From contig CAIUPH010000009.1 in assembly GCA_903901015.1 (NCBI GenBank), forward strand, positions 1 to 32,701: 32,701 bases of DNA. Direction: 5' to 3'. The notes under the pieces are model-generated. The model saw only the letters and a program-made list of their open reading frames with translations. It made no database searches and was not told the origin of the DNA. The stretch comes from Candidatus Bathyarchaeota archaeon (lineage in GTDB: Archaea; Thermoproteota; Bathyarchaeia; Bathyarchaeales; Bathycorpusculaceae). The position numbers and the translations under genes are program-made. This document shows, piece by piece, positions 9,189 through 30,698 of this stretch. Every line of letters begins with the position of its first letter. The first letter of the stretch is position 1.

Positions 9189-10322
9189 ATGGTTAGTGGA
9201 AAACGTATCTTAACAGACTTCAAAGTGTTCAGCCGCGGATACCTTAGAAACAAATTTGGATTGTTCTTCGGCTTAGTCTTCCCAGTAATCTTGATCTTGA
9301 TTTTCGGCGCTATTTTCGCGGGCGGAAGCACGGGAAAAGTAAACATCTATGCTCAGAACCTGGACACAGGACCGTTTGCTTCACCGCAGTTGGATATAGC
9401 ATCTACTTTTTTAGCGACGCTTAACGATTCAAGCACAATTACAGTAATAACGGTGAATCCTTCGGAGAACTTTTCAAAGTACCTATCAGACCATTCGGTA
9501 TCTGACGGCATAGTTATTCCTGCAGACTTCTCGGCGAATTATTTAGCTGGCCAACATGTAAATGTGACAGTTTATGGCAACCCAACCTCAAGCACAAGCG
9601 GCATAGTAAGCGGAACAGTAGGCGGGTATGCCAATGGCTTCAACCTTAACTATTTCCAAACAAAATACAAAGACACCACACCAGCAATCATAAGCATAAC
9701 TCCTGCAACCGTGAACACACAGCAGACAAAATACATTGACTTCCTCATCCCAGGCTTAATCGGGTTCTCAATCCTTACCAGCCCAATGTTCTCGCTGGTC
9801 AACATTTCCTCTGAGTACAAGAAAACAAAGCTGTTCAAGCAACTCTCGCTTACACCGCTTACAAAGATGGAGTGGCTGGCATCGAAAATGATATGGTACA
9901 TCGTCCTCACAATCGCTGGTTTCCTCTTGATGGTTGGTGTGGGAGTTTTGGCTTTCGGCGCACACGTAGCCATAACCCCATGGCTGATACCTTTCCTCAT
10001 ATTGGGTCCAATGCTCTTCGCAGCCCTCGGCATGCTAGTGGGTACAGTAACGAAGAACCCCGAAACCGCAGGCGTCATAGGCAACATCGTAACGTTCCCC
10101 ATGATGTTCCTCGCAGGCACCTTCTTCCCAATCAGCAGCATGCCCCAGTACCTGCAGACCTTCGCCCATGTACTGCCACTGTTCTACGTTACAGAAGGAT
10201 TAAACAACGCCATGGTCTACGGAAACATCAGCGGCACAATCATCGACATCGCGGTCCTCGGAGTTATAACGTTGGTCATCTTCATCTTGGCAGTGAAGCT
10301 GTTCAAATGGAGAGAAGACTAA
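9189..10322 (+). CDS. ABC-2 type transporter permease
   Basis: 377 residues. One N-terminal helix (about 20-42, FGLFFGLVFPVILILIFGAIFAGG) is followed by an external domain of about 130 residues, then five hydrophobic segments from about 180 to 372. This is the YhgE/ABC-2 membrane topology of a half-transporter that dimerises and pairs with the ATPase upstream. GGAGGCGGTAGAG just before the ATG serves as ribosome-binding region inside the end of the ATPase gene. Length is typical. The transported substrate cannot be read from the sequence. It converges on the broken histidine kinase, with the repeat element 10385-10520 between them. Confidence 0.92.
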   Translation: MVSGKRILTDFKVFSRGYLRNKFGLFFGLVFPVILILIFGAIFAGGSTGKVNIYAQNLDTGPFASPQLDIASTFLATLNDSSTITVITVNPSENFSKYLSDHSVSDGIVIPADFSANYLAGQHVNVTVYGNPTSSTSGIVSGTVGGYANGFNLNYFQTKYKDTTPAIISITPATVNTQQTKYIDFLIPGLIGFSILTSPMFSLVNISSEYKKTKLFKQLSLTPLTKMEWLASKMIWYIVLTIAGFLLMVGVGVLAFGAHVAITPWLIPFLILGPMLFAALGMLVGTVTKNPETAGVIGNIVTFPMMFLAGTFFPISSMPQYLQTFAHVLPLFYVTEGLNNAMVYGNISGTIIDIAVLGVITLVIFILAVKLFKWRED

Positions 10323-10384: not shown

Positions 10385-10520
10385 TTTTTTGGCATATTTG
10401 GATCCTAATATCCAAGGTATGCACAGGACCTATAGAGGGGTCTATGCGCCACGAACCTATTTGGAGCCTATTAGGAACTCATTGCAGAAACCTAAGAGGG
10501 TAGGTCACTATTTGTGGTTC
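10385..10520 (+). repeat. Two-module repeat element, copy A (possible structured RNA)
   Basis: The first 81 nt (10385-10465) match the reverse complement of 30121-30202 with three substitutions and one single-base indel; the next 55 nt match at roughly 60-65%. Two related modules follow each other: TTTGGA at 10397 and 10460, each with AGAGGG 35-37 nt later (10434, 10495). Module 1 holds two hairpins: TTGGAT/ATCCAA (10398-10403 with 10410-10415) and ATAGA-GGGG-TCTAT (10432-10445). In copy B the first stem changes C to T, leaving a G-U pair, and the second loop becomes GGGA. It lies between convergent gene ends. No open frame, terminal inverted repeat or target duplication was seen. Confidence 0.8.
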
Positions 10521-10549
10521 TTAACTCCATTAACGGGTTAACTCAGGTT

Positions 10550-12404
10550 TTAAGAATCACTGGCTGAGAATTCAAGGGTGAATTTAGTTCCTTTGTTCTC
10601 TTGGCTTTCAAAAACAACCGTGCCTTTAAGCGATTCCACGAGACGTTTAACAACGGCTAAACCTAAGCCTTGACCTTTCGATTTTGTAGTGAAGAGCGGC
10701 GTGAACATTTTGGTTTTAACATGTTCTGGGATGCCAACGCCCGTATCTTGGACTGTGATGACAGTTTTGTATTTTTTCTTGAGAACGTTTATGGTTAGTT
10801 TGCCTTCGTTGGGCATTGCTTGAACCGCGTTGGTCATTAGGTTAGTGAGTATGCGTCTTAGGTAGGCAACGTCGGTTTTGAGCGTTTTAGCCTTTGGTTT
10901 GACGTCGGTTGTGACCTCTATTCGATTGGGAATGTTGATTGTCAGCAGAGTGCCCTCGATTAATTCAAAGAGGTTAATCTCCTGAATGCTGGGTTTTAGA
11001 GGCCTCGTGTAATCCTGCAGATCGCTGACTATCTTGTTGATGTAGGTCAAGTTTTCAGTGATTGAATCAATGCTCTCAAAGATTGCACGTTTACTCTCGC
11101 CGTCACCCATGACTTTTATTTCTTCCGTTATCAAGTACATGTCGCTAGTTATGGCTTGCAACGGATTACGAATGTCATGTCCAACCATCCCTGCGGTTTG
11201 ACCGATAGCTGCCATACGTTCCGCGTTTTTAAGTTGCTCAGCTCTCTGCTCAGCTAACTGCTCCATTTGGCTGGCGTATTCCTCAAGCATGATGGCGTTT
11301 TCTTCAAGTTTTTCCTGCGCTTTAATTCGAGCTTCCTCAGCCAGTTTTAACTCGTCGATGTCAATGTTGTAAACGCGAATCTGCTGGGACCCAGACACCA
11401 GATAGAACTGCTGGTGGTACCAATGTCCAGCAACTTTAACTTCTCTTCCTAACGTGGTGTTTGTTTGGTTTTTAAAATCTTTAGCGATGTCTTTCCAGTC
11501 AAACAGAAACGGATGGTTCGAACTAGAGATTTCAAGTTCAGGGAAGAGATTTTTTGTTGCAGGGTTAAAGTAGGTTATGTTTCCTTTAAAGTCAAGTTCA
11601 AAAATAGGGTTGGGATTAAGGGTTGGGAAAGTGGCTAAACGCGCGATTTCTTTTTCCGCCGTCTTGCGCTCGGTGAGGTCAACGTTTGATTCGAGAATAC
11701 TTGTGATTTCCCCATGATCGGCTTTTTCAGCAAGCCACCAACTCTGAACAATAACATCACGTCCATCCTTTGTTTTGTGGACAAGCTCACCCGACCAGCG
11801 TTTAGTAGCTTTCAGCTCGGCAATTATAATTTTGAGGGGTTGAGGAAAATTTGTTTCAAAAAGTGCATGGGTTGTTTTGCCGATTGCTTCAGCTTTTATC
11901 CACCCGTAGAGTTTTTCTGCCCACTTGTTCTAAAAAGTGATCGTGTCATCGAATGCCTTAACAATTATAGTGTCTGGGCTTAAGGTCGATTAAGTCAGCT
12001 TGGCGTTGGATTGCGGCTTCGGTTTTCTTGCGTTCAGTTATGTCCTCGAAAAGCGCCGCAAAGTAGCCTTTTTCGGGGCAGTAAGCAGAGATATTGTACC
12101 ATTTACCGAGGGCTTCAGAGTAATTCTCAAATTGGATAGATTCACAAGTGAGCGCAACTTTTCCGTAGGTTCCTAACCAATCTGCAGGGTCCTTCTCTAT
12201 GCCTTTGAGGACGTCGGTTACTTTTCTACCGATGATTTTTCTTTATTGAGCCCAATCATTTTTCAAAGGCGTTGTTAACTTCAAGAAAAAAGTAGTCAAC
12301 AGTTTTACCTGCCTTATCTACATGATCTTGTGGTATGCAAAGGCATCCATCATCCTCTCGAAAAACATGTTGAACTGTTTTCGGTCGGTGCTCCTGGCTT
12401 TGCC
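10550..12404 (-). pseudogene. Broken multi-PAS sensor histidine kinase
   Basis: The C-terminal 282 residues (10550-11398) are intact: coiled-coil linker, phospho-acceptor H-box GHDIRNPL (His 74 of that stretch), N-box NLMTNAVQAMP, DTGVGIP and GQGLGLAV. The frame continues upstream without ATG, GTG or TTG through two PAS-type domains (GHWYHQQFYLV; RWSGELVHKTKDGRDV) to a TAG at 11930-11932 in ITF*NKWAEKLYG, where Trp is expected. Further upstream another PAS domain is readable only by changing frame: an extra base near 11981, missing bases in T-runs at 12236-12240 and 12259-12263, and a further shift near 12320. Homology fades at a TGA at 12405. Either a recently decayed orphan kinase or, less likely given the nonsense codon, read errors. 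A truncated kinase starting at GTG 11398 remains possible. Confidence 0.85.
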
Positions 12405-29788: not shown

Positions 29789-29950
29789 ATGCCAATATTA
29801 GACCCAGTAAAAAAAGCCATAGCGCAAGAACACCGCTTGTACATGAAAATCTGCAGAGACTGTGGCTCACGCAACGCGGCAACAGCGCTAAAGTGTAGAA
29901 AGTGCAAGGGCAAGAACCTGCGCTGGAAGAAACGAGAAATAGTGAAGTAA
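29789..29950 (+). CDS. rpl40e: Ribosomal protein L40e
   Basis: 53 residues: MPILDPVKKAIAQEHRLYMK, a zinc ribbon ICRDCG...LKCRKCKG, and a basic end NLRWKKREIVK. This is the archaeal form of eukaryotic L40 without ubiquitin. A TATA-like GGTATATTT lies at about 29731-29739. Confidence 0.93.
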   Translation: MPILDPVKKAIAQEHRLYMKICRDCGSRNAATALKCRKCKGKNLRWKKREIVK

Positions 29951-30065
29951 CTAGTTTACTTTTTTTATTTTGTTTTAAAAATTTTTAAGCACTGTCTTAG
30001 TGCTCTTTTTGTATATAGCTCCCCTTATTTAAAGCACCCAAATTCAACCTGTTAATGGTTTCTGA

Positions 30066-30202
30066 AAACGCCAATACTGACCTACCCCTCTATCGTTTCA
30101 ACATAGAACCACTAATCGGATCCAAATAGGTTCGTGGCGCAATAGATCCCTCTATAGGTCCTGTGCATACCTTGAATATTAGGATCCAAATATGCCAAAA
30201 AA
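30066..30202 (-). repeat. Two-module repeat element, copy B (inverted)
   Basis: Reads on the minus strand as copy A does on the plus strand. Positions 30121-30202 match 10385-10465 nearly exactly; 30066-30120 match more loosely. The second hairpin is ATAGA-TCCC-TCTAT on the plus strand (30142-30155). It lies between the convergent ends of L40e and the broken peroxiredoxin gene, as copy A lies between convergent genes. Confidence 0.8.
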
Positions 30203-30220: not shown

Positions 30221-30698
30221 CTAAGGGATTTTTTCGAGATTTTTCTGGATTTCTACGTAGTTTGGCTCAACCGATGGGTCTTCCGAAATCCAAACGTACC
30301 TTACAAAACCAGCTTGGTTAAGGATGAAGATGGAACGTTTAGCAACCGTGTAACCTTTAAGACCCGCAAAATCAGGCAGTTCCAGATTCCATTGCTTTAT
30401 GACTCGCGTCTGTAATCGCCCAGCACCGGGAAGGGCAATCTGTTTTTCTCTGAAAAGGCCTTGTTTGAGAAAGGGTCAGTAACGGCGACTCCCACTACTT
30501 GAGCGTTCAAATCTGTTAGACGCGACATGGAATCGCGGAATTCACACGCTTCCTTAGTGCACGTTGAAGTGAAAGCTCCAACGAAGAAGGCTAACACAAC
30601 TTTTTTTCCTAAAAACTCATGGAGGCTTCGGGGATTCTTGTCTGTGTCGGGCATGTGAAATCAGGTGCTTTGTCTCCGACTTTAATTTTGTTTACCAT
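30221..30698 (-). pseudogene. Peroxiredoxin gene with two frameshifts
   Basis: Joined across frames it is an AhpC/Bcp-type peroxiredoxin: MVNKIKVGDKAPDFT, then PDTDKNPRSLHEFLGKKVVLAFFVGAFTSTCTKEACEFRD, then FPVLGDYRRE, then IKQWNLELPDFAGLKGYTVAKRS and VRYVWISEDPSVEPNYVEIQ. The peroxidatic Cys is in AFTSTC and a second Cys in KEAC. One base is missing near 30655 (after DFT) and one near 30404 (after YRRE). Neither lesion removes a catalytic residue, so the protein was recently functional, or the reads have errors here. Confidence 0.82.

Follow-up and report, generated by a model that had tools for sequence, protein, structure and literature searches.

What kind of element occupies the intergenic region at positions 10385–10520 of contig CAIUPH010000009.1, and why does it recur in inverted orientation about 20 kb away? 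The window, by which we mean the whole stretch of DNA analysed, comprises 32,701 nt from a Candidatus Bathyarchaeota archaeon (assembly GCA_903901015.1). The original prediction, made from the letters alone, proposed either a family of structured small RNAs or a non-autonomous dispersed element. The inverted recurrence was confirmed: 10385–10520 on the plus strand (copy A) corresponds to 30066–30202 on the minus strand (copy B), a match far above chance in a BLAST search of their own genome (E=1.6e-36). Three substitutions and one indel had been counted in the first 81 nt. A C/T substitution, a G/A substitution and the indel do lie within approximately 81 nt, and the remaining substitution, G/T, comes at position 83 of the alignment, placing the count within two bases of the alignment. 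The flanking genes of both copies were read and are convergent, as had been described. Copy A is situated between an ABC-2 permease gene (ending at 10322) and a histidine kinase gene (10550–11398), and copy B between an L40e-like zinc-ribbon ORF (29789–29950) and a convergent peroxiredoxin gene. The peroxiredoxin gene (30221–30654) shows an apparent frameshift near 30397, where the ORF stops early while the homologous frame runs to ~30221; this appears to be an assembly error or a pseudogene. We agree that copies A and B contain no terminal inverted repeats, target duplication or ORF.

Each copy had been divided into two modules about 62 nt apart, and these modules are two tandem units, each composed of a dyad and a box, with dyad starts 63–65 nt apart. 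Copy A extends over 10389–10546 (plus strand; nhmmer matches at 10392–10442 and 10452–10507, and own-genome BLAST). Its first unit contains the dyad CATATTTGGATCCTAATA (10393–10410), conserved at 85–89% across copies, and the box TGCACAGGACCTATAGAGGGGTCTAT (10420–10445). The inter-unit linker GCGCCACGAAC (10446–10456) includes the motif CACGAAC, with which many one-unit elements begin. The second unit contains the dyad CTATTTGGAGCCTATTAG (10457–10474) and the terminal box TGCAGAAACCTAAGAGGGTAGGTC (10483–10506), both, like the dyad and box of the first unit, located by nhmmer, and is followed by a degenerate 3' tail, TATTTGTGG...CCATTAACGGGTT (10507–10546), found in other copies as TATTGGCG...CATTAACATGTTGAAAA. 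Copy B lies on the minus strand at 30042–30198 (nhmmer matches at 30195–30145 and 30135–30078), with the unit 1 dyad at 30177–30194, the unit 1 box at 30142–30167, the unit 2 dyad at 30112–30129 and the terminal box TGTTGAAACGATAGAGGGGTAGGTC at 30079–30103, all located by nhmmer. Its degenerate tail is GTATTGGCG...CCATTAACAGGTTGAA (30042–30078). The 3' boundary given originally was too short, as the tail (CCATTAACrGGTT) runs on to ~10546 in copy A and ~30042 in copy B.

An iterated DNA profile, applied with a cut-off of at least 22 bits per unit, identified 201 units in 152 elements. The unit consists of an 18-bp dyad, CTATTTGG-NN-CCTAATAG, followed by 9–10 variable nt, a 25-nt box, TGCAGAAACCTATAGGGGGTAGGTC, and the looser tail. 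The dyad is near-palindromic, with one asymmetric position kept in 138 of 145 dyads. None of 112 boxes lacked a dyad, and beside each of the 15 dyads left unpaired by a regular expression a box was visible by eye; the spacing between dyad and box was fixed in 41 of 44 units. Loci carry one, two or three units, and tandem units are spaced 58–66 nt apart in most genomes and 91–103 nt apart mainly in one MAG. Some dyads (in L057, L095, L197 and L276) contain an additional 11-nt iteration of a half-site (CTATTTGGAGC CTATTAGGAGC CTAATAG), a length of about one helical turn. A further intergenic motif, CTTTAAATAAGGGGGnTATAGTCTC, is found beside many elements (L119 near 4944, L141 near 1995, L168, and L072 near 7078), and also without an element at the 3' end of the permease gene of genome G011.

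The element had been presented as a two-copy sequence, a view that did not survive a search of its own genome (G000; 2.05 Mb in 117 contigs). BLAST with copy A gave at least 40 distinct loci (the best 40 of 77 candidates scored), and about a dozen further loci are marked by a ~120-nt insert in the dyad. The family total in this genome is at least 50 loci, all such copy numbers being lower bounds. When 84,980 prokaryote genomes were scanned with a degenerate pattern, the matches listed were all in Bathyarchaeota/Bathyarchaeia MAGs. Within one GTDB family, 30 of 91 genomes carry the repeat, spread over 10 of the 33 genera; it was found in none of 16 genomes from other families of the same order, and a 161-genome sample of the class Bathyarchaeia gave no match outside this one family. 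One unit was located on an IMG/VR contig (L147:2827–2879, minus strand), adjoining an ORF (1093–2649) identified by eye as terminase large subunit-like, and the exact 18-bp dyad was not found on viral contigs. The open-access literature searched yielded no account of such a dispersed repeat in Bathyarchaeota.

The case for structured RNA had been built on hairpin-preserving differences between copies A and B, in particular a C-to-T change in the hairpin TTGGAT/ATCCAA and the unchanged stem ATAGA/TCTAT of a second hairpin. Across the family, 21 of 171 units retained an intact first hairpin and 20 of 201 an intact second one (about 10–12%), and in a set of 28 units the two hairpins paired in 53.6% of cells, compared with 52.9% in shuffles. 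RNAalifold predicted no pair on either strand for the 28 units, and a covariation test on 147 units (RNAalifold plus G-test, both strands) revealed no structure. Membership of a structured ncRNA family, judged by conserved structure with compensatory changes, was therefore rejected. It is true that the plus strand of copy A is more stably folded than its shuffles (z=-2.3) and that 7-bp helices are in weak excess in the tail (98/152 versus 75/152 shuffled). However, folding is at chance level for copy B (z=-0.2) and for single-unit copies, elements lie along the direction of transcription (31) about as often as against it (41), and an Rfam scan of the window gave no match. Given hairpins at shuffle level, the lack of RNA structure and the chance-level folding of copy B, its C-to-T change is ordinary spacer variation. 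The proposal that these loci encode structured small RNAs, or RNA elements of 3'-UTRs, is already largely refuted, and we consider it highly improbable. The other half of the original prediction, a non-autonomous dispersed element, fared better, as the copies proved to belong to a modular, high-copy intergenic repeat family. A persuasive argument for RNA structure drawn from two copies can fall once every copy is counted.

If not RNA, what keeps these sequences in the genome? Elements are mostly sited just 3' of genes, and the ratio of convergent to divergent sites is 39:20, against a background of 62:91 (Fisher p=0.001), convergent sites being over-used and divergent sites under-used. For an orthology test, 200-nt segments of the genes beside 30 elements of the window's own genome were searched in G013, with coding DNA that is ~80% identical, and 23 loci, the permease locus included, had a placeable neighbour gene. 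The same gene end was occupied in G013 (within 700 nt) at 15 of these 23 loci, with equal orientation in 14 of the 15; the other eight loci were unshared. Uniform placement of ~119 candidate elements in the 2.4 Mb of G013 gives a chance rate of ~3.5% per locus and, under this rough model, p~5e-17 for the conservation of position, although the true value is less extreme because elements cluster between genes. Conservation of orientation alone gives p~0.001. On the 3' side of the permease gene, an element is present in G000 and G013, degenerate in G014, and absent from the remaining relatives with a readable permease end, G005 among them. G005 lacks the family, though at the single permease gene compared it is as near to G013 as G000 is (81% identity), and the family is therefore dispensable.

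The orthologous loci also reveal which parts of the unit persist. In the aligned terminal units of the 15 orthologous pairs, identity was highest in the dyad (0.88) and box (0.85), ahead of the spacer (0.58), tail (0.48) and 5' flank (0.36). Values for non-orthologous pairs were nearly equal to these, and orthology brought no extra likeness. These identities indicate that the loci are old, and that spacer and tail have kept no locus-specific likeness while the dyad and box stayed; the apparent conservation of the core is inflated because the copies were detected by similarity. Unit number and type vary between orthologous loci, and two loci, L003 and L005, are 99% identical across 136 nt. Even with no host function, ectopic gene conversion might suffice to keep the copies of the core similar.

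The retention of dyad and box, when spacer, tail and flanks are not retained, suggests a DNA site that a protein recognises and that selection maintains. We favour, with a probability of roughly 0.58, a modular intergenic repeat, dispersed in genomes of one Bathyarchaeia family, that would act at the DNA level as a putative protein-recognised site under selection. The repeats are probably recognised by a putative protein rather than made into structured RNA. We envisage that a sequence-specific protein would bind the dyad plus box, that selection would hold these sites in place, for example as architectural or barrier sites at gene ends, and that the number and type of units at each locus may shift by recombination or by copying between loci. 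Any host function is something that we infer from these patterns.

A second element, found exclusively in the dyad centre, provides separate evidence that the dyad is recognised as a specific DNA sequence. This inverted-repeat element of ~120 nt, GAGCYCTGTGCA...TGCACACCCCTC, is present in G000 in 17 near-full and two partial copies. Every one of the 19 interrupts a dyad at its centre, as does each of the eight copies in G023, making 27 of 27 copies found in the two species; those in G000 have inserted in both orientations and into differing unit types. An exact 6-bp target duplication (GGANYC, such as GGATCC, GGAGTC or GGAGCC) accompanies some of the G023 copies; one example of the insert is L008:1379–1501 (minus strand). 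The insert, for which no autonomous partner was found, resembles a MITE, a likeness that belongs to the insert and not to the repeat that receives it. A parallel is known in REP repeats, which serve as targets of insertion sequences (PMC1525189).

The main rival to selection on a protein-recognised site is a purely parasitic, BOX- or MITE-like non-autonomous repeat, spread by a putative transposase, in which old insertions persist at tolerated sites 3' of genes and the core is conserved only as the recognition sequence of the mobilising enzyme. Such a history is consistent with the many copies and their patchy presence, with a near-identical copy pair that has a sharp 5' edge at CATATTTGG, with the preference for convergent sites shared with BOX, RUP and IS elements, with the unit on the contig bearing the terminase-like gene, and with the varying unit number at shared loci. 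However, 37 copies read with their flanks showed neither terminal inverted repeats nor target-site duplication, and no neighbour gene was dominant beside elements, nor did any transposase family recur there. Y1 transposase (PF01797) is not enriched in element-bearing genomes and is absent from the element-rich G007, G013 and G014, an origin from RAYT/IS200-605 elements being rejected for want of this association. Reverse transcriptase (PF00078) is likewise not enriched, being absent from nine of the ten element-bearing genomes of the genus, and SINE-like spread was discarded as a candidate. IS110 is rarer rather than enriched where elements occur (1/10 element-bearing genomes of the genus versus 15/21, Fisher p=0.002, the genomes not being phylogenetically independent), and was rejected as mobiliser. 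Dead insertions should moreover decay evenly, whereas position and orientation are conserved across species at loci with saturated spacer and tail. We judge the parasitic history unlikely, though it deserves to be taken seriously.

In a different form of mobility, the dyad would fold as single-stranded DNA into a hairpin on which a recombinase acts, in the manner of attC or IS200/605, and its conserved T.T mismatch would mark the strand. The asymmetric position kept in nearly all dyads would fit such a site, as would the lack of terminal repeats and target duplication; but several element-rich genomes have no Y1 transposase, the centre of the dyad is only 2 nt, and no cassette-like arrangement of genes was seen. 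This leaves the hairpin site with very little probability.

Returning to the favoured protein-recognised site, we put forward a more specific proposal tentatively, as one that we doubt more than we believe: the repeats may provide ~50–120 fixed sites genome-wide for a putative Bathyarchaeia DNA-binding protein whose role at gene ends would be to organize or insulate the chromosome, and a small transposable element would have adopted the dyad as its only insertion site. Dyad-exclusive insertion supplies a bait for finding this putative protein. As the loci are common to species in which spacer and tail are saturated, they offer a clean test of selection versus parasitism for short archaeal dispersed repeats.

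Among known repeat systems, prokaryotic MITEs share with the Bathyarchaeia repeat a short length, a non-coding nature and a high copy number, but the repeat lacks the terminal inverted repeats and target-site duplication of MITEs. REP/BIME sequences (PMC2817692, PMC1525189) are similarly palindromic, extragenic, located near gene ends and specific insertion targets of other elements. In contrast to these, the Bathyarchaeia repeat has no associated Y1 (RAYT) transposase, does not alternate in orientation and combines its dyad with a separate box. The gyrase/topoisomerase IV A subunit (PF00521) is absent from all 91 genomes of the family, and an analogy with the gyrase-binding sites of REP/BIME was rejected. 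The STAR repeats of Staphylococcus aureus (PMC3532100) are likewise interspersed intergenic direct repeats at stable loci, in which unit number expands and contracts; STAR locations, however, differ between species, whereas most Bathyarchaeia loci are common to the species compared, and the unit architecture is another one. The BOX repeats of Streptococcus pneumoniae (PMC3049150) were judged parasitic, and show a similar enrichment between convergent genes. They resemble the Bathyarchaeia repeat in being short, modular, non-coding and dispersed in intergenic regions, with variable internal unit number and stable insertions. The Bathyarchaeia repeat, dispersed and intergenic with one to three units per locus and over-represented between convergent genes, is BOX-like in kind, not by homology. 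It differs from BOX in sequence and domain of life, in having no stable RNA structure, in a core made of dyad plus box, and in positions that are conserved between species (~80% coding identity) and not only between strains. Its sequence places the repeat in none of these systems; in kind it is modular, interspersed and intergenic, with BOX and STAR as its closest counterparts.
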